This document shows, piece after piece, positions 10,847 through 54,140 of a stretch of 58,071 nucleotides of DNA. Both the position numbers and the translations under genes were made by a program. Numbering within the stretch: position 1 is the stretch's first letter; every line of letters starts with the position of its first letter. Source of the DNA: a virus; IMG/VR virus record IMGVR_UViG_3300040946_000134, positions 1 to 58,071 of that record; one strand, 5' to 3'. The notes under the pieces were generated by a model. It ran no database searches, was not told the DNA's origin, and saw nothing but the letters and a program-made list of their open reading frames with translations.

Positions 10847-11425
10847 TCAGCGTGCTATGTTGATGATTATCCCATTGACCACGGTGACCGTGGCCCCGTC
10901 TGCAGACGTAAACACATCACTGGCACCGGTGGACACATTTAAATTACCATTAACCGTGATGCCCAAGCTCAAGTAGTCGGCGAAGGCGCTCGCGATCGCA
11001 CTGATTCCGACCAAGGCTATTCCATCAGCCATGCTGTGCATCCTGAGGGTGTTCGGAGGAGCCCCCGTGGTACCGTTTGTTAGCCAAGGGTCTAAATCCC
11101 GGTCATTGAACAGAACTAAGCAGGTGTCCCCTTGAGAAACCGGCATCCCAATGAAAGTGGAGCCTCCACGTAAAACGAATACCGGCACATCCTGCAAGAT
11201 GGGATATGGTATGAGGGATGGGGCTTGAGGAACCGTTCCCTTCACCAAACCCTTATTAAATACCTGCGCTGTATTTACTAGTTGGATGGATGCCGTCTGG
11301 GTATCAGCATTGAAGCTCACCACGGTCCCCACCCGCACGCAGTTCAGCCCCGAGTAGGAGTTGTCGCGCTCCTGGTCCAGGATCACCCGGAGGTCCGGAT
11401 TGACTAGGAAGGACTGGTTGTTCAT
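10847..11425 (-). CDS. Baseplate central spike protein, Gp138/gpV-like
   Basis: 192 aa. The N-terminal half NCVRVGTVVSFNADTQTASI..QDVPVFVLRGGSTF..PVSQGDTCLVLFNDRDLDPWL is the OB-fold domain of Gp138/gpV-type spike proteins. The C-terminal VNGNLNVSTGASDVFTSADG is a short beta-helix/tip region. It forms the membrane-piercing needle under the tail tube. The stop codon overlaps the hub gene start by four bases. Confidence 0.85.
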   Translation of the reverse strand: MNNQSFLVNPDLRVILDQERDNSYSGLNCVRVGTVVSFNADTQTASIQLVNTAQVFNKGLVKGTVPQAPSLIPYPILQDVPVFVLRGGSTFIGMPVSQGDTCLVLFNDRDLDPWLTNGTTGAPPNTLRMHSMADGIALVGISAIASAFADYLSLGITVNGNLNVSTGASDVFTSADGATVTVVNGIIINIAR

Positions 11426-12333
11426 TGCGGCTGCGAGATCAGAATGTTGCTCAGGGTGGGGCTAGTCACGGAAACCGTGTTCGGGAACCAAAGGAAACTT
11501 CCGGTGGTAGTGTTCGGGATCGCGGTTGGCGCGTTTATCGCCCCGCGGTGCTCGAAGGCCACTATCTTGTGGAGTCCGTTCCACTGCGGGTTGAACGTGC
11601 TCTCCAAGTCTATGGTCTGGAAGAGATTCAGGCGCGGCTCGAAAACCATGTCTAGCTCCACCATGGCTCCGCTCCTGCGCGGAACGCCGAGCAACCCCGT
11701 GTCCGCGGAGACCAACGGGGCGGAGGCCGTTGGAAGGCCCTCGTTTGGATTGAGGCAGAAGAGCTGGCCGTTCGATATGGCCGCGTTCCCGCCGGACTTG
11801 TCCAGGATGATCCCCCAGGTGTTCCCGGCCAGAACCTCCGTCCGCATGTTCACCGTGGGGAAGAATCCGACCGTGGGCTTTCCTATTATCCCGGGCATCT
11901 GCGCCCCGAACTGAACGATCACCGCGTCCGCCCTGGTCTGCGGGGGAACGGTCGTTGAGACGAACCCGTTGGTCATCGGGAACCCTCCGTCGAAGGCATC
12001 TATCACGGTAACAGTGTCCGTGTTGCCCTCCTTCTCCGAGTAGGCCTTCAGGATGGTGCCGTTGAAGATCAGGGGCGTGAAGTTTTGGTAACCGGCCGCG
12101 AAGGTGACCGTCCGCAAGACGGTCCAGTCGAACTGATCCTTGTAGAGCTTCCTGCGGTCCTCCTTCCCCAAGCCATAGACCCTGAACTGCGCCGTCTGCG
12201 TGGAGGCCATTGCCTTCCTGGTTATCGTGAACTTTATCGTCAGCCCTGCCGGAGGCGTGAAAAGCTGCGTGGCCCCCGTGGAATCCGGGGCGGTCTGAAC
12301 CGTCAGCGTGCCTTGTGGTAGGAACTTGGGCAT
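11422..12333 (-). CDS. Baseplate hub protein (gp27/gpD-like)
   Basis: 303 aa. RKLYKDQFDWTVLRTVTFAA, GTILKAYSEKEGNTDTVTV and DAFDGGFPM match tail hub proteins of the gpD/gp27/Mu gp44 type, which form the trimeric ring that carries the spike. Order here is hub then spike, as expected. The start is four bases after the end of the plug gene. No lysozyme domain is fused. Confidence 0.75.
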   Translation of the reverse strand: MPKFLPQGTLTVQTAPDSTGATQLFTPPAGLTIKFTITRKAMASTQTAQFRVYGLGKEDRRKLYKDQFDWTVLRTVTFAAGYQNFTPLIFNGTILKAYSEKEGNTDTVTVIDAFDGGFPMTNGFVSTTVPPQTRADAVIVQFGAQMPGIIGKPTVGFFPTVNMRTEVLAGNTWGIILDKSGGNAAISNGQLFCLNPNEGLPTASAPLVSADTGLLGVPRRSGAMVELDMVFEPRLNLFQTIDLESTFNPQWNGLHKIVAFEHRGAINAPTAIPNTTTGSFLWFPNTVSVTSPTLSNILISQPQ

Positions 12334-25176: not shown

Positions 25177-25953
25177 ATGAGCGAACTAAATGACCCGCTG
25201 GTTAACGCAGCTCTAGCCGGCGAGGGAACCATACCGAAGGCGCGGAACCCGAAAAAGATTTTCATGGGCTCCGCCATGCAGGACTCCATGCGCAAGGAAA
25301 CCTCTAATTTCTGGTCCAGCATCCGAGCCGGAATGATCCCCGACTACAAGTTCGTCACACTTCGCCTGAGCGGGTACGGGCTTCCCAAGTGTAGGAACGT
25401 CCTCACCTGGGTGGCGCGGCAGACGGACTGCGGCCGCATCATGATGGTGGACTCCGACATGAACCCAAGGCTAGAGGACGTGGTCAGGCTCCTGAGCCAC
25501 GACGTCGAGCTGGTCTCCGGCTGCTACCCGCAGAAGCGGTTCGACAAGCTCTCCTGGGTTGGTAACTTCTCCGGACCGGCCGGGCCCAACGGTCTAGCAC
25601 CGGCATATGACTTCGGTGGCGGCTTCTGCTCCATAAGCCTGGATTTCATTGACAAGATGGTCGAGCACTACCCGGAGACGGCCTTCGAGTCCGAGGATGA
25701 TCCCTGGCGCGGGAAGATCATGCATGATCTCTGGAGCAACGGACCCGTGACGGACGAATGGCATGGGAGGAAGTATTCTCGCTATCTGACCGAGGACTAT
25801 TACCTATGCTACCGGGCGCGCAAGATGGGCGTTACACCATGGATGGACTCCGGCTGTCAGGTCGGGCACGTTGGAAGCATCGACTACCTGCAGTTATGGA
25901 TGGGCGTGAAGGTTCTTGAGAACCAGTCGATCTTCCGGGCCCCAACGGATTAA
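25177..25953 (+). CDS. Glycosyltransferase (GT-A fold, GT2-like)
   Basis: 258 aa, the only plus-strand gene. MVDSDMNPRLEDVVRLL holds a DSD motif for metal and nucleotide-sugar binding. Later come VSGCYPQKRF, YDFGGGFCSI, and LTEDYYLCYRARKMGVTPWM followed by GHVGS, the acceptor-side E-D and His motifs seen in phage GT-A proteins. The ATG at 25177 is chosen over an upstream TTG. It ends in a four-base convergent overlap with the HNH gene. Likely modifies virion proteins, DNA or host glycans. Confidence 0.75.
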   Translation: MSELNDPLVNAALAGEGTIPKARNPKKIFMGSAMQDSMRKETSNFWSSIRAGMIPDYKFVTLRLSGYGLPKCRNVLTWVARQTDCGRIMMVDSDMNPRLEDVVRLLSHDVELVSGCYPQKRFDKLSWVGNFSGPAGPNGLAPAYDFGGGFCSISLDFIDKMVEHYPETAFESEDDPWRGKIMHDLWSNGPVTDEWHGRKYSRYLTEDYYLCYRARKMGVTPWMDSGCQVGHVGSIDYLQLWMGVKVLENQSIFRAPTD

Positions 25954-26582
25954 GTCATCAGGAACGGAGTCCAGTGAGGATGCTTGGCCTCCCGTATGGC
26001 GAAGGTCATTGGAACGGACGGTGGCGCTTTCGGGGCGCGCAGAAGCTGGAGACCGGCCTCCCGGTTCAGCCTGTTACCCTTCCGGCTATTGATCTCCACG
26101 TGGGACAGAACCAGGTTCTCCCAGGTGTCACGGCCTCCAAGATCCCGCGGAAGAACGTGGTCTATGTTTCCCTCGCTCGGCTTGAGCCTGCGGCCGGTGT
26201 ACTGGCAGACCCCTTGGTCACGCTCCCAGATCCCACGCCGGCAGAGACGCGGGCGCTTCATCGGGATCTTGTCGTAATTCTGCTGGATGATCACGGTCGG
26301 TGCGCGGATGCCGCCGTTCACGGTAGCGATAGCAAGGTCGTGTTCCCGGACCGGAAGCTGAATCCAGTCCTCCCATGGAACGGGCGAGGCGTTGGTCAAC
26401 TGGCCCATGTCCAGGCTTCCGTCCTCTCTACGCATAAAGTCCACGTCCATCCCGAACGCCGGGTGCCCTCCGCTGAGTCCTCCGGCCATCGCTATGACGG
26501 CCTCCCCCACGGTGAGCATTCCTATAGGCCTCCAGCTCCTGTTGAGGGAGAGGCAGATGGTTTTGTCGAGGACTCCTGTCAT
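25950..26582 (-). CDS. HNH endonuclease
   Basis: 210 aa from ATG at 26582; a TTG at 26609 would add nine residues. The C-terminal half has the HNH signature: GVCQYTGRR, then NIDHVLPRDLGGRDTWENLV and LSHVEINSRKGNR. The N-terminal LSLNRSWRPIGMLTVGEAVI is typical of a bacterial HNH family of about 200 aa. It lies directly downstream of the tRNA array and would be on the same transcript. Possible homing or defence role. Confidence 0.8.
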   Translation of the reverse strand: MTGVLDKTICLSLNRSWRPIGMLTVGEAVIAMAGGLSGGHPAFGMDVDFMRREDGSLDMGQLTNASPVPWEDWIQLPVREHDLAIATVNGGIRAPTVIIQQNYDKIPMKRPRLCRRGIWERDQGVCQYTGRRLKPSEGNIDHVLPRDLGGRDTWENLVLSHVEINSRKGNRLNREAGLQLLRAPKAPPSVPMTFAIREAKHPHWTPFLMT

Positions 26583-26612
26583 GGGAAAGGCTGCGCGTTC
26601 TTTTCGCAAAAG

Positions 26613-26699
26613 TGGCGGAAGGCATCCCTGCTGCCGAGAATCCCCTTCGGGACGATCCGGTTAGCAACCGGTCACGCGGGCTGCCGCGTTTTACCTTCC
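26613..26699 (-). tRNA. tRNA-Ser (GCT)
   Basis: 87 nt, acceptor GGAAGGT with GCCTTCC, G73, CCA encoded. Anticodon loop TTGCTAA. Long variable arm with a CCC-GAA-GGG hairpin, as expected for serine. T-loop GGCAGCA; the compact D-loop GCAGCC contains AG. T-stem has one mismatch. Confidence 0.85.
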
Positions 26700-26703
26700 A
26701 AGA

Positions 26704-26795
26704 TGGCGGTGAGTTGAGGACCTGCCCCCCAGCCCATTTCTGGACGCCTGGTTTTCGAGACCAGTCGGCGCTCTATTGCACCTGCTTAACTCACC
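26704..26795 (-). tRNA. tRNA-Ser (CGA)
   Basis: 92 nt, acceptor GGTGAGT with ACTCACC, G73, CCA encoded. Anticodon loop CTCGAAA on a perfect CTGGT/ACCAG stem. Long variable arm TCCA-GAAA-TGGG. T-stem TGGGG/CCTCA closes T-loop GGCAGGT. Confidence 0.88.
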
Positions 26796-26796
26796 A

Positions 26797-26871
26797 TGGT
26801 TTTCCCGCGGGGACTCCCACCCCGATCATACGTTTAGGAAACGTAGGCCCTGTGTCTTGGACGACGGGAAA
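26797..26871 (-). tRNA. tRNA-Arg (CCT)
   Basis: 75 nt, acceptor TTTCCCG with CGGGAAA, A73, CCA encoded. Anticodon loop TTCCTAA on TACGT/ACGTA. T-loop TGGGAGT has G55 G56; D-loop AAGACACA has A18 C19, so the 19-56 pair is C-G instead of G-C. Confidence 0.9.
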
Positions 26872-26872
26872 G

Positions 26873-26949
26873 TGGTGCCTCACCAGGGACTTCAACCCGT
26901 GATTTCGCGGTCCGTAGCCGCGTGTCCTGTGCATTTGGACGAATGAGGC
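26873..26949 (-). tRNA. tRNA-Arg (ACG)
   Basis: 77 nt, acceptor GCCTCAT with GTGAGGC, A73, CCA encoded. Anticodon loop CTACGGA on CGCGG/CCGCG. T-loop TTGAAGT keeps T55 but has G56; D-loop AAATGCACA has G18 C19, a swapped 19-56 pair. Outer T-stem has two mismatches. Confidence 0.85.
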
Positions 26950-26953
26950 GAAA

Positions 26954-27029
26954 TGGCATCGGCGGCAGGAGTTGCACCCGCATATAGCGGCTTAGAAGAC
27001 CGCGGCCTTTCTGTTCGAGCCACGCCGAC
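26954..27029 (-). tRNA. tRNA-Arg (TCT)
   Basis: 76 nt, acceptor GTCGGCG with CGCCGAT, G73, CCA encoded. Anticodon loop CTTCTAA. T-stem GCGGG/CCTGC, T-loop TGCAACT; D-loop GAACAGAA fits A18 G19. Confidence 0.88.
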
Positions 27030-27030
27030 G

Positions 27031-27105
27031 TGGTGCCTCCCGCCGGACTCTCACCGGCATCGCAGCCTTCGGAGGGCTGAATCCTATATCTTGGATGAGG
27101 GAGGC
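27031..27105 (-). tRNA. tRNA-Arg (CCG)
   Basis: 75 nt, acceptor GCCTCCC with GGGAGGC, A73, CCA encoded. Anticodon loop CTCCGAA on CAGCC/GGCTG. T-loop TGAGAGT has A56; D-loop AAGATATA has A18 T19, so the 19-56 pair is T-A. This is the clearest single compensatory case. Confidence 0.92.
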
Positions 27106-27112
27106 CTGAAAT

Positions 27113-27190
27113 TGGGGTGGTCAACGGGAACTGCCCCCGTCCCCTCGCCTTCACAGGGCGATGTGCTTGCCTATCCACACTCTGACCACC
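27113..27190 (-). tRNA. tRNA-His (GTG)
   Basis: 78 nt including a G at -1 that can pair with C73, the histidine identity mark. Acceptor GTGGTCA with TGACCAC, CCA encoded. Anticodon loop CTGTGAA on TCGCC/GGCGA. T-stem ACGGG/CCCGT, T-loop GGCAGTT. Confidence 0.9.
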
Positions 27191-27191
27191 A

Positions 27192-27262
27192 TGGGGCCTT
27201 CGTTCGGTTCCGCCCCGAATTGGCCGCGCTACAAGGGCGGCTTCCCGACTACGGACGAAGGC
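27192..27262 (-). tRNA. tRNA-Thr (TGT), shortened D-arm
   Basis: 71 nt, the shortest of the array. Acceptor GCCTTCG with CGAAGGC, C73, CCA encoded. Anticodon loop CTTGTAG with a C-C mismatch at 31-39. T-stem TTCGG/CCGAA, T-loop GGCGGAA. The D-arm is short and pairs poorly. Confidence 0.78.
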
Positions 27263-27267
27263 GAAGC

Positions 27268-27342
27268 TGGATCTCCGCTCCGGGCTTGCGCCGGACTCCC
27301 CAGTTTACGGGACTGGCGCGTCGCTGCCTACGCTTGCGGAGA
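27268..27342 (-). tRNA. tRNA-Thr (CGT)
   Basis: 75 nt, acceptor TCTCCGC with GCGGAGA, T73, CCA encoded. Anticodon loop CCCGTAA has C33 instead of T33. T-stem TCCGG/CCGGA, T-loop CGCAAGC (the only C54). D-loop contains AG. Confidence 0.82.
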
Positions 27343-27343
27343 A

Positions 27344-27436
27344 TGGTGCTCCCGTCTGGTGCTGCCCCAGAACCCGGCGCTGATCTAGCGCGATTCCGCT
27401 TATAAGGCGGACGGTTCGACTGCGAACTGCGGGAGC
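27344..27436 (-). tRNA. tRNA with TAT anticodon and long variable arm (Ile codon AUA?)
   Basis: 93 nt, acceptor GCTCCCG with CGGGAGC, A73, CCA encoded. Anticodon loop CTTATAA on TCCGC/GCGGA gives UAU, the AUA reader. The variable arm GCGCT..AGCGC makes it class II, normally restricted to Leu, Ser and Tyr in bacteria. T-loop GGCAGCA, D-loop GCAGTC. Amino-acid identity is uncertain. Confidence 0.8.
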
Positions 27437-27437
27437 G

Positions 27438-27510
27438 TGCCCAGGGTCGGACTCGCACCGACAACCTTCCGGTTTTAAGGCGGACGGCTCTTCTGTTGGC
27501 CTACCCGGGC
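27438..27510 (-). tRNA. tRNA-Leu (TAA), short variable loop
   Basis: 73 nt without CCA; the next bases read CGC, so CCA must be added. Acceptor GCCCGGG with CCTGGGC, A73. Anticodon loop CTTAAAA with a C-C mismatch at 31-39. Variable loop only AGGTT, unlike normal leucine tRNAs. T-loop TGCGAGT. Confidence 0.8.
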
Positions 27511-27514
27511 AAGA

Positions 27515-27589
27515 TGGTGCGCGCGAAGGGATTTGCACCCATAGGACGGTGGGTTTGAGCCACCGATGTCTTCATTGCATCACACGCGC
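27515..27589 (-). tRNA. tRNA-Leu (CAA), short variable loop
   Basis: 75 nt, acceptor GCGCGTG with CGCGCGC, A73, CCA encoded. Anticodon loop CTCAAAC on GGTGG/CCACC. Variable loop GTCCT (class I). T-loop TGCAAAT; one T-stem mismatch. Confidence 0.85.
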
Positions 27590-27590
27590 A

Positions 27591-27665
27591 TGGTAGCCCA
27601 TCCGGGTGCCGCCCCCGGTTCTGAAGTTCGAGAAACTTCTGACTTAGCTGATGGTCGAATGGGCC
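27591..27665 (-). tRNA. tRNA-Glu (CTC)
   Basis: 75 nt, acceptor GGCCCAT with ATGGGCT, A73, CCA encoded. Anticodon loop TTCTCGA on GAAGT/ACTTC. T-stem CCGGG/CCCGG, T-loop GGCGGCA. D-loop contains CAGC. Confidence 0.88.
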
Positions 27666-27675
27666 ATACTGAAAT

Positions 27676-27760
27676 TGGTGGGCACGGCAGGACTCGCACC
27701 TGCAAAGGTCGCCGGTCTGAACGGCGTGGCTGTACTGATTCGCTCTGATCCCACGTGCCC
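27676..27760 (-). tRNA. tRNA-Leu (CAG), enlarged D-arm
   Basis: 85 nt, acceptor GGGCACG with CGTGCCC, A73, CCA encoded. Anticodon loop TTCAGAC on CGCCG/CGGCG. Variable region is short (ACCTTT), but about 25 nt lie between position 9 and the anticodon stem, roughly eight more than usual. T-loop TGCGAGT on GCAGG/CCTGC. Confidence 0.82.
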
Positions 27761-27769
27761 GTAGGAAAT

Positions 27770-27846
27770 TGGTGCCGGCGATAGGATTCGCACCTACACT
27801 TGCCACCTTCTCAGGATGGTGCCTCTTCTAGTTGGGCTACGTCGGC
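27770..27846 (-). tRNA. tRNA-Leu (GAG), short variable loop
   Basis: 77 nt, acceptor GCCGACG with CGCCGGC (one A-C mismatch), A73, CCA encoded. Anticodon loop CTGAGAA on CCATC/GGTGG. Variable loop CAAGT. T-loop TGCGAAT on GTAGG/CCTAT. Confidence 0.82.
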
Positions 27847-27847
27847 A

Positions 27848-27923
27848 TGGATCTGGTTGCGGGAATTACACCCGCCATCACTCGCTTACCAAGCGAGGTC
27901 CGCGTTGTCTCGGAGTAACCAGA
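27848..27923 (-). tRNA. tRNA-Thr (GGT)
   Basis: 76 nt, acceptor TCTGGTT with AACCAGA, T73, CCA encoded. Anticodon loop TTGGTAA on CTCGC/GCGAG. T-loop TGTAATT has T56; D-loop AGACAACG has A18 A19, so the 19-56 pair is A-T. Confidence 0.9.
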
Positions 27924-27924
27924 G

Positions 27925-27999
27925 TGGTGGGGACGTGGCGACTTGCACGCCTCTCTTCCGGGTAAGGGCCGGAGTCATCGCTTTCTATGAGTCATCCCC
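27925..27999 (-). tRNA. tRNA-Lys (CTT)
   Basis: 75 nt, acceptor GGGGATG with CGTCCCC, A73, CCA encoded. Anticodon loop CCCTTAC has C33. Stem TCCGG/CCGGA. T-loop TGCAAGT; D-loop contains AAGC. Confidence 0.85.
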
Positions 28000-28000
28000 G

Positions 28001-28075
28001 TGGCAGTCCCCGAAGGATTCGCACCTTCACCTCAGCGGTTCAAAGCCGCGTGCGCTGCTGTTACGCTAGAGGACC
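28001..28075 (-). tRNA. tRNA-Gln (TTG)
   Basis: 75 nt, acceptor GGTCCTC with GGGGACT including a weak G1-T72 pair, G73, CCA encoded; weak 1-72 and G73 are glutamine identity marks. Anticodon loop CTTTGAA. T-loop TGCGAAT on GAAGG/CCTTC. Confidence 0.9.
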
Positions 28076-28079
28076 AAAG

Positions 28080-28154
28080 TGGTCGGAGCGGTGAGAGTCG
28101 GACTCACTTGGTCTTGTTCCCGAAACAAGTGCCTGGCCGTTAGGCTACGCTCCG
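28080..28154 (-). tRNA. tRNA-Pro (CGG)
   Basis: 75 nt, acceptor CGGAGCG with CGCTCCG (C1-G72, a proline mark), A73, CCA encoded. Anticodon loop TTCGGGA on CTTGT/ACAAG. T-loop TCCGACT has C55 C56 and the D-loop keeps GG, so both elbow pairs can be G-C. Confidence 0.92.
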
Positions 28155-28155
28155 C

Positions 28156-28229
28156 TGGTTCTCACGGCCGGTAACGCTCCGGCTTCCCTTGCATGTCGAG
28201 CAAGTGCTCTGCTTCTGAGCTACGCGAGA
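28156..28229 (-). tRNA. tRNA-Val (GAC)
   Basis: 74 nt, acceptor TCTCGCG with CGTGAGA, A73, CCA encoded. Anticodon loop TCGACAT has C33. D-arm GCTC-AGAAGCA-GAGC. T-stem GCCGG/CCGGC, T-loop AGCGTTA (A54, T58). Confidence 0.88.
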
Positions 28230-28230
28230 A

Positions 28231-28304
28231 TGGCTCTCCAGGATGGTACTGCCCCACCTTCACACGGGTCAGAGCCGTGGGTAATGCTTCTATACGACTG
28301 GAGA
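28231..28304 (-). tRNA. tRNA-Gln (CTG)
   Basis: 74 nt, acceptor TCTCCAG with CTGGAGA, G73, CCA encoded. Anticodon loop CTCTGAC on CACGG/CCGTG. T-loop GGCAGTA on GGTGG/CCATC. Confidence 0.88.
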
Positions 28305-28307
28305 ATA

Positions 28308-28485
28308 ATTCCCAGGTGGGATTGTATACCCACCGTGGCCGTGATAGGCGTGTTGGTGACGACGCCTCGTTACTTCTACCGTGCGGCCTAACCATACTCA
28401 TCTCGGCCGCTACACCCGCTCCGTATCGCTACACCGGGTATGCTCTCAAGGCCCTGATTAACGCCCGACCTGACGTGGCTGGAAA
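28308..28485 (-). ncRNA. 178-nt tRNA-like structured RNA inside the tRNA array
   Basis: It fills exactly the space between tRNA-Gln(CTG) and tRNA-Asn. Its 5' TTTCCAG (28479-28485) pairs over 7 bp with 3' CTGGGAA (28309-28315), with one T-G pair. A D-arm-like ACGT..GCGT follows the 5' strand, and a T-arm-like GTGGG/CCCAC with 8-nt loop TATACAAT precedes the 3' strand. Between them are three further hairpins: ACCCG/CGGGT, GCGGCC/GGCCGC and GGCGT/ACGCC. No CCA is encoded. It could be an intron-bearing or expanded tRNA, or a tRNA mimic. No anticodon arm could be assigned with confidence. Confidence 0.55.
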
Positions 28486-28560
28486 TGGCTGCTAGGGCAA
28501 GACTCGCACTTGCATAATACCGCTTAACAGGCGGGCGCACGACTATTGTGCTACCTAGCA
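28486..28560 (-). tRNA. tRNA-Asn (GTT)
   Basis: 75 nt, acceptor TGCTAGG with CCTAGCA, G73, CCA encoded. Anticodon loop CTGTTAA. D-arm GCAC-AATAGTC-GTGC. T-loop TGCGAGT on GCAAG/CTTGC. Confidence 0.9.
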
Positions 28561-28564
28561 AAAG

Positions 28565-28638
28565 TGGTGGGGAATGAACGTGCTGCCCGCTCGACTCCTG
28601 AGTGTGGATCAGGTATGATTCTGTTTCAACAATCCCCC
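28565..28638 (-). tRNA. tRNA-Val (CAC)
   Basis: 74 nt, acceptor GGGGGAT with ATTCCCC, A73, CCA encoded. Anticodon loop TCCACAC has C33, on CCTGA/TCAGG. T-stem GAGCG/CGTTC, T-loop GGCAGCA. D-loop AACAGAA. Confidence 0.87.
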
Positions 28639-28639
28639 G

Positions 28640-28716
28640 TGGCGGTCCCAAGGAATGCTGCCTTCCTCTCTCCCGCGTGACGGGCGGGCGCTTTCAGCTA
28701 GGTAAGCTATGAGACC
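28640..28716 (-). tRNA. tRNA-Asp (GTC)
   Basis: 77 nt, acceptor GGTCTCA with TGGGACC, G73, CCA encoded. Anticodon loop CCGTCAC has C33, on CCCGC/GCGGG. T-stem AGGAA/TTCCT, T-loop GGCAGCA. Confidence 0.9.
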
Positions 28717-28723
28717 GTGAAAG

Positions 28724-28798
28724 TGGTATAGACGGGGAGAATCGGACTCCCTTAATCTCGGTCCCAAGCCGAGCGATCAACCAATGACCCACGTCTGT
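28724..28798 (-). tRNA. tRNA-Pro (TGG)
   Basis: 75 nt, acceptor ACAGACG with CGTCTAT (one mismatch at 2-71), A73, CCA encoded. Anticodon loop CTTGGGA on CTCGG/CCGAG. T-loop TCCGATT (C55 C56) with GG in D-loop ATTGGTT, the same solution as the other proline tRNA. Confidence 0.88.
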
Positions 28799-28799
28799 G

Positions 28800-28875
28800 T
28801 GGTGGAGGCTCCCGGTGCCGCCCCGGGTTATCCGGTTCTTCAGACCGGCGCAATGACTGCACTTGCTCAACCTCC
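28800..28875 (-). tRNA. tRNA-Phe (GAA)
   Basis: 76 nt, acceptor GGAGGTT with AGCCTCC, A73, CCA encoded. Anticodon loop CTGAAGA on CCGGT/ACCGG. D-stem GCAA/TTGC. T-loop GGCGGCA on CCCGG/CCGGG. Confidence 0.92.
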
Positions 28876-28882
28876 ATGAAAG

Positions 28883-28958
28883 TGGCATGCCCGGTAGGTA
28901 CTGCCCCTACATGAACCGGATTTGGAGTTCGGCGCCTTCCTTGTCGAGCCACGGGCAT
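28883..28958 (-). tRNA. tRNA-Trp (CCA)
   Basis: 76 nt, acceptor ATGCCCG with CGGGCAT, G73 (tryptophan mark), CCA encoded. Anticodon loop CTCCAAA, stem with one A-C mismatch. T-stem GTAGG/CCTAC, T-loop GGCAGTA. Confidence 0.88.
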
Positions 28959-28964
28959 AAAAGA

Positions 28965-29038
28965 TGGGAGCAGGGGTGGGAGTCGCACCCACGACAGCCG
29001 CGGTTATGAGCCGAGCCAGAACGCTGGTTCTCCCTGCC
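28965..29038 (-). tRNA. tRNA with CAT anticodon (Met, or Ile if C34 is modified)
   Basis: 74 nt, acceptor GGCAGGG with CCCTGCT, C73, CCA encoded. Anticodon loop CTCATAA. T-stem GTGGG/CCCAC, T-loop TGCGACT. The D-arm pairing is ambiguous. It lacks the C1-A72 mismatch and GGG/CCC anticodon stem of a bacterial initiator, so an elongator or an Ile2-type tRNA is more likely. Confidence 0.8.
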
Positions 29039-29042
29039 AAGG

Positions 29043-29116
29043 TGGTGGTCAAGCACGGTGCTGCCCCGTAGTCTGACGGTTATCGACCGTCTGCTCTGCT
29101 GTTGAGCTACATGACC
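29043..29116 (-). tRNA. tRNA-Ile (GAT)
   Basis: 74 nt, acceptor GGTCATG with CTTGACC (one T-T mismatch), A73, CCA encoded. Anticodon loop TCGATAA has C33, on GACGG/CCGTC. D-arm GCTC-AACAGCA-GAGC. T-loop GGCAGCA. Confidence 0.88.
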
Positions 29117-29117
29117 G

Positions 29118-29202
29118 TGGTCCAGGCGGTAGGACTCGCACCTACGAAGTCCGGAGACAACCGGGTTACGGCCGGTCGCGTTTGCTACTCTGCCACGCCT
29201 GG
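29118..29202 (-). tRNA. tRNA-Tyr (GTA)
   Basis: 85 nt, acceptor CCAGGCG with CGCCTGG, A73, CCA encoded. Anticodon loop CCGTAAC has C33, on ACCGG/CCGGT. Long variable arm GTC-TCCG-GAC, as expected for tyrosine. T-loop TGCGAGT on GTAGG/CCTAC. Confidence 0.9.
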
Positions 29203-29203
29203 A

Positions 29204-29278
29204 TGGTGCCCCAGTCCGGTAACGCTCCGGATCAGCCTGTTTGGAAGACAGGTGCGCATCTGTAAACGCTTCTGAGGC
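29204..29278 (-). tRNA. tRNA-Gly (TCC)
   Basis: 75 nt, acceptor GCCTCAG with CTGGGGC, A73 (glycine tRNAs usually have T73), CCA encoded. Anticodon loop CTTCCAA on CCTGT/ACAGG. T-stem TCCGG/CCGGA, T-loop AGCGTTA. Confidence 0.87.
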
Positions 29279-29283
29279 GAAAT

Positions 29284-29358
29284 TGGTGGATCGTGTCGGT
29301 AACCCTCCGACTCCTCCCGGGTGCGGACCGGGTGTGCTTGTTTTACCACTAACGACCC
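29284..29358 (-). tRNA. tRNA-Ala (CGC)
   Basis: 75 nt, acceptor GGGTCGT with ACGATCC, A73, CCA encoded. The alanine mark G3-T70 is present. Anticodon loop TCCGCAC has C33. T-loop AGGGTTA has G56 and the D-loop carries A-C, so the 19-56 pair can be C-G. Confidence 0.9.
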
Positions 29359-29362
29359 AAGG

Positions 29363-29437
29363 TGGACGCGCATCCGGGTAATGCTCCCGGCCGTTCTGTT
29401 TTGCGGACAGACCCTCACTCTTGTCAGGCAATGCGCG
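29363..29437 (-). tRNA. tRNA-Cys (GCA)
   Basis: 75 nt, acceptor CGCGCAT with ATGCGCG, T73 (cysteine mark), CCA encoded. Anticodon loop CCGCAAA has C33, on TCTGT/ACAGA. T-stem CCGGG/CCCGG, T-loop AGCATTA. Confidence 0.9.
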
Positions 29438-29444
29438 CTGAAAT

Positions 29445-29520
29445 TGGTGGCCCCGTCGGGTATCCCTCCCGCTTCATCTGCTTAAAAGGCAGCTGCTCAT
29501 GTGGCTAAAGCTTCGGAGCC
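29445..29520 (-). tRNA. tRNA-Lys (TTT)
   Basis: 76 nt, acceptor GGCTCCG with CGGGGCC, A73, CCA encoded. Anticodon loop CTTTTAA. T-loop AGGGATA has G56; the D-loop contains CCACA, offering A18 C19. One outer T-stem mismatch. Confidence 0.87.
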
Positions 29521-29521
29521 G

Positions 29522-29595
29522 TGGTGCGGGCGCGGGGAGTCGCACCCCGGCCGAGTCGTTGGCAACGACCCATTCTGCTGCTGAACTACGCCCGC
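29522..29595 (-). tRNA. tRNA-Gly (GCC)
   Basis: 74 nt, acceptor GCGGGCG with CGCCCGC, A73, CCA encoded. Anticodon loop TTGCCAA on GGTCG/CGACT. D-arm GTTC-AGCAGCA-GAAT. T-stem CGGGG/CCCCG, T-loop TGCGACT. Confidence 0.9.
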
Positions 29596-29600
29596 GAAAA

Positions 29601-29675
29601 TGGTACCCCGTGAGAGTGCTACCCTCTCTTTTCCGGCTTGAAAGGCCAGTGAACTAGTTGGTATTCGAACGGGGC
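29601..29675 (-). tRNA. tRNA-Glu (TTC), first tRNA of the array
   Basis: 75 nt, acceptor GCCCCGT with ACGGGGT, A73, CCA encoded. Anticodon loop CTTTCAA. T-stem GAGAG/CTCTC, T-loop GGTAGCA has T56; D-loop TACCAACTAG offers A18 A19, an A-T pair at 19-56. Confidence 0.9.
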
Positions 29676-39022: not shown

Positions 39023-39475
39023 TTATCGTTTTGGCTTAATCCCGAAGATGTTCTTTCCGTCTAGATGGTCCGTTTCGTGTTGGAAGATCCGGGCATTCAG
39101 GCCGCGCATTTCCCGCTCGATTTGATTTCCGTTCACGTCCGTGTACCGGACCGTGATGCGCTCCGCCCGCTCCACGCTCCTGGTTCTTCCGGGGAAGCTG
39201 AGGCAGCCCTCTATCCCGTCCTTGTATTTGTCTGCTTGGATTATGGAGGGGTTGATGACCACGGTTAGGTGCTCTGGGCGCAGTCCATAGATGAAGAAGC
39301 GTAGAGGTATTCCTACTTGGGGGGCAGCTAGACCTATCCCGCGGGCGTGGTTGGGGGCGCGCATTAGGGCCTTCATGGGTTCGATGTCTGGCAAGATGCC
39401 GTCGATTTCCTTCACGGCTGCGCATACCTCCCAGAGAAGGTACCAGTCTGGATCTGTTGGGGCGAGGATCTTCAT
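39023..39475 (-). CDS. def: Peptide deformylase
   Basis: 150 aa with all three deformylase motifs: GIGLAAPQVG (residues 46-55), EGCLSFPG (89-96) and QHETDHLDG (132-140). Metal ligands would be Cys91, His133 and His137, with Glu134 catalytic. The enzyme removes the N-formyl group from new proteins. Phage deformylases are known mainly from marine phages. It is shorter than most bacterial enzymes but complete. Confidence 0.9.
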   Translation of the reverse strand: MKILAPTDPDWYLLWEVCAAVKEIDGILPDIEPMKALMRAPNHARGIGLAAPQVGIPLRFFIYGLRPEHLTVVINPSIIQADKYKDGIEGCLSFPGRTRSVERAERITVRYTDVNGNQIEREMRGLNARIFQHETDHLDGKNIFGIKPKR

Positions 39476-46069: not shown

Positions 46070-46471
46070 TCAGTTCACCCCGGACGGGTGGGAGAGTATC
46101 ACGTATGTGGCCGCGCTTAGGCTACCGATTCTGAAAGGGACCCATTTCAGTCCGAAGCACCTCGTCACGTTGCGGCCCAGCAGGACGACGAGGTCGCCCG
46201 GCCTCACCCGCGCTCGCAGGCTCTTGGCCTGTTCCATTCCTTCCTGTATGTCGAAGGCGTCGCCCTTCCCCGCCTTCCCGGGAAACCGGGCGTTCATGTT
46301 CTCCCGGCGGCACATCAGGAACCGTTCGAATCTGATTCCAAGGATTTTGCAGAGCCTCCGGCCGGCGACTCCGGACAGAGGACCGAGATCCAGCGGGGGC
46401 GGAGCGCCTGGGATCTCCGTCTGTTCCGAACGCTTCGGGTGGCCCGGGGCTTGTCCGACGAATATGATCAT
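46070..46471 (-). CDS. UDG-superfamily-like protein, cut by in-frame TGA
   Basis: 133 aa from ATG at 46471 (ATGA overlap upstream). Motif MIIFVGQAPG at the start and ILSHPSGVN at the end match the two active-site motifs of uracil-DNA-glycosylase-like proteins; in between GRRLCKILGI, NARFPGKAGKGDAFD, GDLVVLLGRNVTRCFG. Right after the HPSGVN a TGA occurs, but the frame continues with FYNKPENRAAAREAVGRALA to a TGA at 45986 that forms an ATGA overlap with the next gene. Family members have Arg and an FxN-P segment here, so TGA looks like a CGA-to-TGA change. Confidence 0.65.
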   Translation of the reverse strand: MIIFVGQAPGHPKRSEQTEIPGAPPPLDLGPLSGVAGRRLCKILGIRFERFLMCRRENMNARFPGKAGKGDAFDIQEGMEQAKSLRARVRPGDLVVLLGRNVTRCFGLKWVPFRIGSLSAATYVILSHPSGVN

Positions 46472-47541
46472 GGCGCGGCCTCCTTCTTCGGCATCAGCTT
46501 CTGGTCGCGGAAAACGCTGTAATCGACGTGATGCTGCCAGCGGTTCCACTTCCGCGTTATCCGGACGATGTCTGGGTGCTGGTCCCGTAGAGATTCCGCC
46601 ATCTTCAGGCGTCCGTCCCCTGCGTACAGCTCATCCGTGTTCCCACCTTTCATGGACATGGTTGGCATCTTCTTGGCCAATATCGCGTTGAATAGTGCCG
46701 TGCAAAGGCCTGATTTCAAGACTCGGATAGATAGGTCGGTGTCCTCATTGTATCGGCCGCGCCAGCGGAAGGGTAGATCGTTCCGGATCAGGATGCATGA
46801 GTACACCCGCGTGTTTAAAACGAACGGCGGCTGCTGGGCCCTGCGGTCCGCGAAGAACTCGTAATTCATCCCGGAAATGGCCAGGTTCTCGTAACGGTCC
46901 GAGAACTCCTCCACGGGCGTGAACGGGTTGAAGTCTATGACCTTAACCTTCAGGTTGTTGTTCAGGCGATAGAATCCGTCGATGTTGTCGTCCAGGATCC
47001 AATGCCTGAAGGCCCCGCGCTTCGCGGCGTCCTCCCAGACCCAATTGCGCGCCGGTATGGAGCCTTGCCCGAGATTTGAGAAAGGAAGCGTCAAAATGCT
47101 GGATGGGCCCGCCACGGTCTCGTAGGCCGCGGCTTCCTGGGGCTCCACCACTAACCAGAAGTCGATCCCGAGCTTCTGGAGCGCCCGAATGGTCAACGGA
47201 GTCTCCCAGCGGCCTTTGGAGATTATGTACACCGGATATTTGTTCCCTGGAACTTTCACCGGCGCGGCACCGCGAACGCTTTGGGATAGGTATTCCATGG
47301 GCGGGAACCAGATGGACTTGCGCCGGGCCGGATGCTCTCCGAGTAACGCCAGGAATGACTGCCTGTCCTCCTCGTTCCTGAATTGCACGTTTATCGAGTC
47401 GTATGGTTTCCGGTCCTTCTGCTCGAACTCCGGCATCCCGTCCCATTCCTTCTTCCAGTCCGGCGGGACTTCCAGAAGCGTCATCTGTCCTGGGTTATCG
47501 GGCAGGCGCGGCTCTGGTTGGGTGCGTGTTTCTTCGGTCAC
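46468..47541 (-). CDS. TET-associated-type glycosyltransferase
   Basis: 357 aa from GTG at 47541, in a GTGA overlap with the upstream stop. From about residue 100: KYPVYIISKGRWETPLTIRA, FWLVVEPQEAAAYE, LTLPFSNLGQGSIPARNWVW, FRHWILDDNIDGFYRLNNNL, and RWRGRYNEDTDLSIRVLKSG. This is the pattern of the TAGT family, which in phages often transfers sugars to hydroxymethylated cytosine made by TET/JBP enzymes. No TET/JBP gene is in this window. DDN is the likely metal site. Confidence 0.7.
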   Translation of the reverse strand: MTEETRTQPEPRLPDNPGQMTLLEVPPDWKKEWDGMPEFEQKDRKPYDSINVQFRNEEDRQSFLALLGEHPARRKSIWFPPMEYLSQSVRGAAPVKVPGNKYPVYIISKGRWETPLTIRALQKLGIDFWLVVEPQEAAAYETVAGPSSILTLPFSNLGQGSIPARNWVWEDAAKRGAFRHWILDDNIDGFYRLNNNLKVKVIDFNPFTPVEEFSDRYENLAISGMNYEFFADRRAQQPPFVLNTRVYSCILIRNDLPFRWRGRYNEDTDLSIRVLKSGLCTALFNAILAKKMPTMSMKGGNTDELYAGDGRLKMAESLRDQHPDIVRITRKWNRWQHHVDYSVFRDQKLMPKKEAAP

Positions 47542-47789
47542 GTGCGTTCCTTTACTCTCCCGCAGACCGGGTAGATGATCGTGAAGAAATTGCGCCCGGC
47601 GTGACACCTGACCACGATCTCTTTGTGTCCGCGCTGAAGCGGAAGGTCCCCAATGACCGTGATCCTCTCCTTTCCTTCATACCCCACCTTGCGCCCCGGC
47701 CTAAGCTTCGCGGTTCGGTTTCCAACAACCTTCTGTGTTTCCGCGTCCAGAAGGGTCTCGAAATAGCCGTGTTTTTCGAACTCTAGCAT
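47538..47789 (-). CDS. Hypothetical beta-rich small protein
   Basis: 83 aa: KHGYFETLLDAETQKVVGNR, KLRPGRKVGYEGKERITVIG, VVRCHAGRNFFTIIYP. Several strands, no helix. No family recognised. Overlaps its neighbours on both sides by 4-7 bases. Confidence 0.45.
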   Translation of the reverse strand: MLEFEKHGYFETLLDAETQKVVGNRTAKLRPGRKVGYEGKERITVIGDLPLQRGHKEIVVRCHAGRNFFTIIYPVCGRVKERT

Positions 47790-52958: not shown

Positions 52959-54140
52959 TCAGTCCTTGTATGGGTCGAAGGTGTCCCTACCGGCCATTGC
53001 CACGCCGATTGGTTTCAGAATCTCCAGGATTCGAATAGTGCTGGAATGGGCGGCGAGAACGGAGTCGAGGCGCTTATAGGCCTGCGGGGATTCGTCTAGT
53101 CCTCCGCCGCGCAGCTCCACGTGGGCCCGGCCCACTACCCAGTCGTCCATCATTTCCTGGGTGATTTTCCCTTCCGAGATATGTACTTTCTCTCCGTTCT
53201 TCCAGCGGACCTTGCCGGCCGCTTCCGTCCGAGACATCGCGCGCCCGGCTCCGTGAACGGTGGAATAGAGGGATAGCTTGGCGTCGGGATGTTCTACGCC
53301 TTCTAGGATCACGGAGTTCTCGCCCATCGTCCCTCCGACAAACCCCTTCTGGCCGGGAAAGGCCGGGGTCGCTCCCTTGCGAACCACCCAAAGCCTCTCG
53401 CCGTCATGCGTCTCTTCCCAGGCGAAATTGTGATGGTTGTGAATCTCCGCTAAAACGCCCGCCCCGATTATCTGCGCCACCTTGGAGCAAACCCAATCTC
53501 GTCCAGCATAGGCGAAGCGGCCCGCCAGGTTCATGCAGGCCAGGTATTCCCGTCCGAGGTCCGTGTCCGTCTTCAGGACACACGGGTCCACGTTTATGCC
53601 GTCTTTGCCTCCAGCCGCTTTTATGTAATGGGTTGCCAGCTTATGGCCCAGTCCGCGGGACCCGAAGTGAACCCCGACCCAAATAAATCCGTTCGGGTCC
53701 TTGAATATGTCAACGTAATGATTCCCGGAGCCCACGGTGCCCAGCTGCTCCCGCGCCAGGTCCTTAAGAGAGGCAGCGGCTGGTATCTCCCAGGCTGGGT
53801 CGTCGAATAGCGGATGGTCGACCGTTTCCTTGTTCTTCCGTCCGACTCCGAAGCTGATGGTGTTCCAAACGTCATCCATTATCAGGGAAATTCTCGGCCA
53901 TACGTCCGCGGCCATTGCATTAAGCATCACGGCCTTGTTCCCGCAGGCTATATCGTAGCCTACCCCCGACGGACTAATCGCCCCTTGGTACGCCACCACG
54001 CCGCCAACAGGCACCGCATAGCCCTGATGATGGTCCGCCATGAGCGCAACCCTGTAGGCAGTCTTCAGGCAGTTTCGCGCCTGGACCAGCGCGTTTTCCA
54101 GGGGCTCACCCCAGACCGGGATTCCGTCTATGATTTTCAT
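52959..54140 (-). CDS. rtcB: RtcB RNA ligase
   Basis: 393 aa with the full RtcB motif set: MADHHQGYAVPVGGV, GVGYDIACGNK, GTVGSGNHYVDIF, GVHFGSRGLGH, IHNHHNFAWEE, RKGATPAFPGQKGFVGGTMG and YSTVHGAGRAMSR, whose His would carry the GMP. RtcB joins RNA ends with 2',3'-cyclic phosphate and 5'-OH, the product of tRNA-cutting toxins and tRNA splicing. With a 36-tRNA array in the same genome, tRNA repair or splicing is the obvious role (inference). Somewhat shorter than many bacterial RtcB but complete. Confidence 0.92.
   Translation of the reverse strand: MKIIDGIPVWGEPLENALVQARNCLKTAYRVALMADHHQGYAVPVGGVVAYQGAISPSGVGYDIACGNKAVMLNAMAADVWPRISLIMDDVWNTISFGVGRKNKETVDHPLFDDPAWEIPAAASLKDLAREQLGTVGSGNHYVDIFKDPNGFIWVGVHFGSRGLGHKLATHYIKAAGGKDGINVDPCVLKTDTDLGREYLACMNLAGRFAYAGRDWVCSKVAQIIGAGVLAEIHNHHNFAWEETHDGERLWVVRKGATPAFPGQKGFVGGTMGENSVILEGVEHPDAKLSLYSTVHGAGRAMSRTEAAGKVRWKNGEKVHISEGKITQEMMDDWVVGRAHVELRGGGLDESPQAYKRLDSVLAAHSSTIRILEILKPIGVAMAGRDTFDPYKD

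Follow-up and report, generated by a model that had tools for sequence, protein, structure and literature searches.

How can a transfer RNA (tRNA) keep its L-shape when the sequence that normally builds its elbow is missing? In canonical tRNA the T54·A58 pair encloses the U-turn Ψ55-C56-R57 and G18 intercalates, and the G18–Ψ55 contact is counted among the most conserved features that the molecule has. The question is raised by the 58,071-base IMG/VR virus record IMGVR_UViG_3300040946_000134 (positions 1–58,071; this whole stretch is called the window), which carries the sheath, portal, Mu-F, capsid and terminase genes of a contractile-tailed phage. On its minus strand, at 26613–29675, 36 tRNA genes representing all 20 amino acids occupy 3.06 kb, about 12 genes per kb, and nearly all of them have G at position 55. 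Comparison with tRNAs of many other viral and bacterial loci indicates that this G55 goes together with A18, so that the elbow would be kept by an alternative contact.

Common gene finders overlook most of these tRNAs. ARAGORN detects 13 of the 36, and the Rfam tRNA model (RF00005) reports 12 at its gathering score. A structural scan based on stems, T33 and CCA only, in which the T-loop sequence is ignored, recovers 31 with a cloverleaf and CCA, and the remaining five were parsed by hand. The array tRNAs thus have the standard-length cloverleaf stems and the anticodon-loop T33 of the RF00005 family; what they lack is its conserved TTC at 54–56 with G18 G19, in place of which A18–G55 is found. 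A megablast search of phages with the array gave no matches.

A reading of this DNA made from its letters alone (the sequence-only reading) had claimed that the elbow is rewritten in all 36 tRNAs. This holds in that every T-loop departs from TTC (0/36), but the change is not uniform: G55 is present in 33, and the other three differ otherwise, with C55 in both tRNA-Pro (TGG, T-loop TCCGATT, 28724–28798; CGG, TCCGACT, 28080–28154) and T55, facing G18, in tRNA-Arg(ACG) (TTGAAGT, 26873–26949). Its counts for position 55 are reproduced, as are those for the 54/58 pair (T/A in 17, G/G in 13, A/T in 4), the remainder being A/A in tRNA-Lys(TTT) (AGGGATA, 29445–29520) and C/A in tRNA-Thr(CGT) (CGCAAGC, 27268–27342). 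It had also noticed that the D-loop follows position 56, and base 19 is indeed the Watson–Crick partner in all seven tRNAs without C56: C19–G56 in Arg(ACG), Lys(TTT), Arg(CCT) (TGGGAGT, 26797–26871) and Ala(CGC) (AGGGTTA, 29284–29358), T19–A56 in Arg(CCG) (TGAGAGT, 27031–27105), and A19–T56 in Thr(GGT) (TGTAATT, 27848–27923) and Glu(TTC) (GGTAGCA, 29601–29675). That G55 mostly meets A18 while C55 keeps G18 was likewise seen: with the register set by eye, about 31 of the 33 G55 tRNAs of the window have A18, tRNA-Met(CAT) (TGCGACT, 28965–29038) appearing to have C18, and both tRNA-Pro combine C55 with G18. The T-loop groups proposed at that time recur at other loci as the classes TGCRANT, GGCRGNA and AGCRTTA, joined by a CG..A class.

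These other loci were collected with a pattern describing two adjacent tRNAs that both end in CCA and have TGCRANT T-loops; it occurs in at least 119 viral contig stretches and in at least 116 from bacterial genomes. In the first locus set the scanner that ignores the T-loop found 1,333 tRNAs above its score threshold and none in shuffled loci. Both sets together contain at least 2,136 distinct tRNAs from phage contigs and bacterial genomes, mainly of Verrucomicrobiota, and at least 1,416 of them have G55, a frequency that is not a prevalence because the loci were gathered by a G55 pattern. The A18–G55 elbow is unique neither to the window phage nor to phages. Loci in which every tRNA has G55 are numerous (23/23 in each of L015, L068 and L069), and mixed loci likewise.

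The comparison of positions 18 and 55 was confined to tRNAs with a 7-nt D-loop, in which the register is fixed. In the window and the other loci, G55 is accompanied by A18 in 97 per cent of such tRNAs (n = 358) and T55 by G18 in 99 per cent (n = 147). This two-state rule is followed by 499 of 514, compared with a maximum of 325 in 5,000 permutations that ignore kinship among the sequences. Kinship is partly corrected for by disjoint pairs of similar tRNAs differing at position 55, where base 18 switches too in 20 of 21 pairs. In the 50 loci that contain both states, 206 of 209 tRNAs follow the rule; for example, tRNA-Ala(TGC) of two colinear viral arrays reads TGTTGGTA/TTCGACT in one (L090) and TGTTAGTA/TGCAACT in the other (L066). 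Position 19 is the Watson–Crick partner of position 56 in 20 of 24 cases without C56, and the pairs 54/58 and 8/14 covary as well.

The covariation suggests how the L-shape may be kept. The G18–U55 contact would be replaced by A18–G55. The pair T54·A58 (or G54·G58, A54–T58 or C54–A58) would enclose G55-C56-R57 as a UGNRA lonepair triloop, and the D-loop base A18 would supply the fourth base and complete a composite GNRA fold, a geometry suggested by the match of T54-G55-C56-R57-A58 and A18 to the UGNRA-plus-outside-A arrangement. Pair 19–56 would remain Watson–Crick whatever its identity, and RNase P and the ribosome would still meet the flat outer face that they recognise. Two modification enzymes, TruB (Ψ55) and TrmH (Gm18), would lose their targets. 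The minimal substrate of TruB is 53-GUUYRANYC-61, and among the modifications of tRNA Ψ55 is treated as the most universally conserved (PMC7912444); G55 breaks this motif, so Ψ55 should not form, and with A18 in place of G18 neither should Gm18.

Several features indicate that these are tRNAs under functional constraint. The pair G3–U70 is present in 51 of 51 G55 tRNA-Ala and in only 11 of 1,365 non-Ala tRNAs, and N73 follows the isotype (Cys T 69/69, Asp G 62/63, Trp G 21/21). Long variable arms are found in all 34 Tyr and Ser G55 tRNAs. The aminoacylation identity expected of the family is thus present among the G55 tRNAs as a whole, and the window fits, its tRNA-Ala having G3–U70 and its tRNA-His(GTG) (GGCAGTT, 27113–27189) C73 and an upstream G-1. 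With these elements kept, host synthetases should be able to charge the array tRNAs.

Two groups of tRNAs depart from the expected variable loops. A long variable arm is normally a feature of Leu, Ser and Tyr tRNAs, but it also occurs in tRNAs with the Ile anticodon TAT, in the window (GGCAGCA, 27344–27436, minus strand) and at L032, L085, L092, L121, L168, L207, L245 and L269. Reassignment of AUA, which such a tRNA might suggest, was rejected: AUA codons align with Ile as AUC codons do. AUA is used 17 times per 1000 codons in the window phage, the genome of which has 59 per cent GC. Among G55 tRNAs with Leu anticodons, 73 of 120 were assigned short variable loops, which could partly be a preference of the scanner; a short loop differs from normal bacterial tRNA-Leu.

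The explanation that we favour, and consider moderately probable as a whole, is that the array forms an accessory tRNA set, functional and nearly complete, with an elbow of an alternative T-loop fold, tied to RNA damage. The cassette would be a horizontally mobile unit resembling the long tRNA arrays known as L-arrays, with its HNH nuclease, and would be part of, or evolve with, an RNA-damage response comprising RtcB, Ro60/TROVE, RlaP, RNA ligase and SPFH. Its most likely role would be to stand in for host tRNAs that are cut or become limiting in the course of infection. This explanation is built on sequences, covariation, identity elements and gene neighbourhood, from which we infer the atomic geometry, the loss of TruB and TrmH action, expression, charging and the reason for the G55 preference. 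A bolder version, which we find doubtful, is that a second class of elongator tRNAs is common to phages and bacteria, a complete parallel A18–G55 set that would bypass TruB and TrmH, be spared by agents that disable ordinary tRNAs and serve, with RNA repair, as an orthogonal backup.

A number of observations weigh against the favoured explanation. Stems are damaged in several tRNAs of the window, namely the T-stem of Arg(ACG), the D-arm of Thr(TGT) (GGCGGAA, 27192–27262, start corrected by eye) and the first anticodon pair of Ser(GCT) (GGCAGCA, 26613–26699), and tRNA-Leu(TAA) (TGCGAGT, 27437–27510) has no encoded CCA and directly abuts the next tRNA. The GNRA geometry suits the TG..A class best; 14 of the 36 tRNAs of the window belong to this class, the others having G/G, A/T or C/A closures, of which G54·G58 and A54–T58 would have to be isosteres. 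The RtcB gene of the window lies 23 kb from its array. Repair genes also stand beside T55 arrays (Tunturi_5, LuckySocke, Mx1), and in genome loci the G55 fraction is independent of them (0.82 versus 0.80); the repair link would therefore explain the arrays, not G55. To these are added the neglect of kinship in the permutation test and the gathering of loci by G55, although the latter does not affect covariation in the same way.

Could the array simply be decaying, or its tRNAs be false calls? ARAGORN and Rfam miss about two-thirds of it, and the few broken arms and the missing CCA of Leu(TAA) would fit decay. Nearly all stems are intact, however, and tertiary changes are compensatory; this reading, which we consider highly improbable, was rejected because shuffled sequence gave no matches and identity elements, with N73, are conserved. 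It is harder to say why G55 was adopted. The sequence-only reading had proposed that selection kept the L-shape while removing the normal sequence, perhaps as an escape from tRNA-targeting enzymes. The first part is upheld by the compensatory changes at 18–55, 19–56 and 54–58 across many lineages, whereas the escape purpose is conjectural. It supposes that the elbow was rewritten so that enzymes reading G18 and Ψ55 spare the array tRNAs while those of the host are destroyed. The repair genes near the arrays do point to tRNA damage, viral loci have a G55 fraction of 0.86 with repair genes (n = 10) and 0.55 without (n = 91), and altered anticodon loops that are predicted to let phage tRNAs evade tRNases have been reported (PMC10264068). 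Yet the tRNases named in that study cut the anticodon loop. Positions 32, 37 and 38 of this loop are alike in T55 and G55 tRNAs, and T55 arrays have the same repair neighbours. We know of no tRNase that reads 18–55, and none was identified in the window. Evasion therefore seems to us rather doubtful.

Independence of TruB modification would account for the change equally well, and it requires no enemy: if the host is too slow in modifying bulk or emergency tRNAs, a fold that dispenses with Ψ55 and Gm18 could be favoured. The G55/A18 combination would eliminate the targets of both enzymes, and UGNRA with an outside A is a form used in RNAs such as the TPP riboswitch. A general depletion of modification sites was considered and rejected, being modest only (D-loop U falls from 0.31 to 0.21 per nt); T54 is retained in 69 per cent of G55 tRNAs across all loci, and many arrays are still T55 or mixed. 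We hold this explanation tentatively, as possible. Since it and evasion both predict the observations and repair genes also accompany T55 arrays, these genes do not decide between them. A third view, that A18–G55 and G18–U55 are interchangeable and the switch merely preserves the fold, agrees with the abundance of mixed arrays and with orthologous positions that differ in state between colinear arrays. Such drift accounts for the mixed arrays, but not for the near-complete fixation of G55 in many others, when T55 is kept both in the sampled cultured phages and in the scattered tRNAs of TAV2 and G104; we judge it unlikely.

There is good support for an alliance between a mobile tRNA array and RNA repair. 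An HNH endonuclease (25950–26609, minus strand) lies directly 3′ of the window array and belongs to a family common to the HNH proteins beside other G55 arrays; among its 30 best matches these are 42–60 per cent identical to it, chromosomal ones included, while identity to the HNH beside the T55 L-arrays of Nostoc and Kovacikia is about 37 per cent. The order of tRNAs is shared with L075 (19/19), L090 (20/22) and the Verrucomicrobial chromosomal locus L350 (19/24), in every case above shuffles. Both the nuclease and the gene order are thus common to phages and chromosomes, as expected of a mobile L-array. The 42 fetched loci of terminase relatives contain no tRNAs. From the relatives of the cassette we would guess that the host of the phage belongs to the Verrucomicrobiota.

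RtcB, Ro60/TROVE, RlaP, RNA ligase and SPFH are recurrent neighbours of the arrays. In the 116 genomic G55 loci listed, each of at most 8 kb, RtcB occurs in 33, TROVE in 20, Band7 in 8, RlaP in 7 and RNA ligase in 4, and 55 of the 116 have at least one of the five, compared with 0 of the 42 terminase-control loci. Among 145 Verrucomicrobiota genomes, RtcB is found anywhere in 66 and TROVE in 1; five contain the tandem G55 pattern, four of them with a divergent RtcB no more than about 6 kb away. Three further RtcB copies of this divergent subtype have no match to the tandem pattern beside them; one led to a new array (G050/L347, 15/16 G55), and no array was found beside the other two. The RtcB RNA ligase of the window (52959–54140, minus strand) is 57 per cent identical to that of the chromosomal G55 array L285 and at most 37 per cent identical to the other RtcBs compared. 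TROVE was not found among the window genes scanned; RtcB and TROVE adjoin the arrays in chromosomal relatives, not in the window.

In CcrSC, LuckySocke, BF, GAP31, JoeDirt, S-CBWM1 and Mx1, all cultured phages, none of the detected tRNAs has G55, and the cultured phage Tunturi_5, reached via RtcB and HNH, is essentially T55. Tunturi_5 (L369, PP885688, 222–262 kb) has 41 tRNAs according to ARAGORN, one of undetermined isotype, and 0 in the annotation of the record; RtcB, HNH and tRNA nucleotidyltransferase are close by. The chromosomal relatives TAV2 (G001) and G104, a single-contig genome, also carry, away from the array, scattered tRNAs with canonical T-loops; there the array is supplementary to a housekeeping set.

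In its dense run of tRNAs, its mobility and its HNH neighbour the window array resembles the L-arrays of Mycobacterium and the trn operon of Anabaena PCC 7120, which comprise at least 20 dense tRNA genes with HNH nearby, are supplementary to the housekeeping set and are horizontally mobile (PMC10272220, PMC5966550). Anabaena keeps its 26-tRNA operon silent until translation stress induces it, and TrcR represses both this operon and rtcB (PMC10272220). The classical L-arrays of Kovacikia, Nostoc TCL26-01 and Paenibacillus pSC2 differ in having U55 in 68 of 70 tRNAs, while that of the window is phage-borne and has no TTC. The UGNRA T-loop or lonepair triloop of the TPP riboswitch and its relatives (PMC2258182) has the same T54-G55-N-R57-A58, with an external A that would complete a GNRA fold, but in our case it sits in a tRNA elbow, where U55 is canonical. 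Phage tRNA sets have been proposed to replace damaged host tRNAs (PMC10264068); here, in contrast, the change is in the elbow, affects nearly every isotype and extends to bacterial chromosomes. The rsr-yrlBA-rtcBA operon combines RtcB, TROVE and a tRNA-like RNA in a context of RNA damage (PMC7790460), whereas the G55 system has a whole tRNA array alongside. A natural exception in elbow pairs (A54/A58) is known from eukaryotic tRNA-Ala with unusual 54/58 and 15/48 pairs, which according to the authors do not occur in bacteria; it concerns one isotype, and a G18–U55 change was not described (PMC7566577). We found no description of A18–G55 tRNAs in the literature searched, which did not include subscription papers and preprints, and priority is thus not established.

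A near-universal rule of the elbow therefore appears to have a widespread and testable alternative in hundreds of viral and bacterial tRNA clusters. The two states, present in hundreds of natural tRNAs, allow the reasons for retaining TruB and the canonical pair to be tested directly, and the switch suggests a route to the design of elbow-orthogonal tRNAs. The arrays also link phage and bacterial tRNA clusters to RNA damage.

The other array genes, all on the minus strand, are as follows. ARAGORN and the structural scan agree on both tRNA-Pro, Arg(CCG) and Arg(CCT), and on Gly(GCC) (TGCGACT, 29522–29595), Gly(TCC) (AGCGTTA, 29204–29278), Tyr(GTA) (TGCGAGT, long variable arm, 29118–29202), Asn(GTT) (TGCGAGT, 28486–28560), Gln(TTG) (TGCGAAT, 28001–28075), Leu(GAG) (TGCGAAT, 27770–27846), Leu(CAA) (TGCAAAT, 27515–27589) and Arg(TCT) (TGCAACT, 26954–27029). 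The five parsed by hand are Leu(TAA), also called by ARAGORN, Arg(ACG), also called by Rfam, and three read by eye: Ser(GCT), Ser(CGA) (GGCAGGT, 26704–26795) and Leu(CAG) (TGCGAGT, 27676–27760). All others come from the structural scan, with the anticodon of Met re-read by eye and His supported in addition by its sequence; those not yet located are Cys(GCA) (AGCATTA, 29363–29437), Ile(GAT) (GGCAGCA, 29043–29116), Trp(CCA) (GGCAGTA, 28883–28958), Phe(GAA) (GGCGGCA, 28800–28875), Asp(GTC) (GGCAGCA, 28640–28716), Val(CAC) (GGCAGCA, 28565–28638), Gln(CTG) (GGCAGTA, 28231–28304), Val(GAC) (AGCGTTA, 28156–28229), Lys(CTT) (TGCAAGT, 27925–27999) and Glu(CTC) (GGCGGCA, 27591–27665). Outside the array, ARAGORN calls a tRNA-Pro at 11717–11790 (plus strand) inside a predicted gene on the opposite strand (11422–12333), which is probably false.

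Elsewhere in the window, genes for a peptide deformylase (39023–39475) and a TET-associated glycosyltransferase (46468–47607) are present, which suggests hypermodified DNA. The 181-nt gap within the array (28305–28485, minus strand) contains a structured RNA without a match in Rfam. Its invariant GAGATGAGTATGGTTA loop and flanking motifs are common to 16 other loci, in a Klebsiella phage and viral contigs, and against these 12 of 31 predicted pairs covary, for example GCGGCC/GGCCGC versus GCTGGA/TCCAGC. It is probably a new family of phage RNA.

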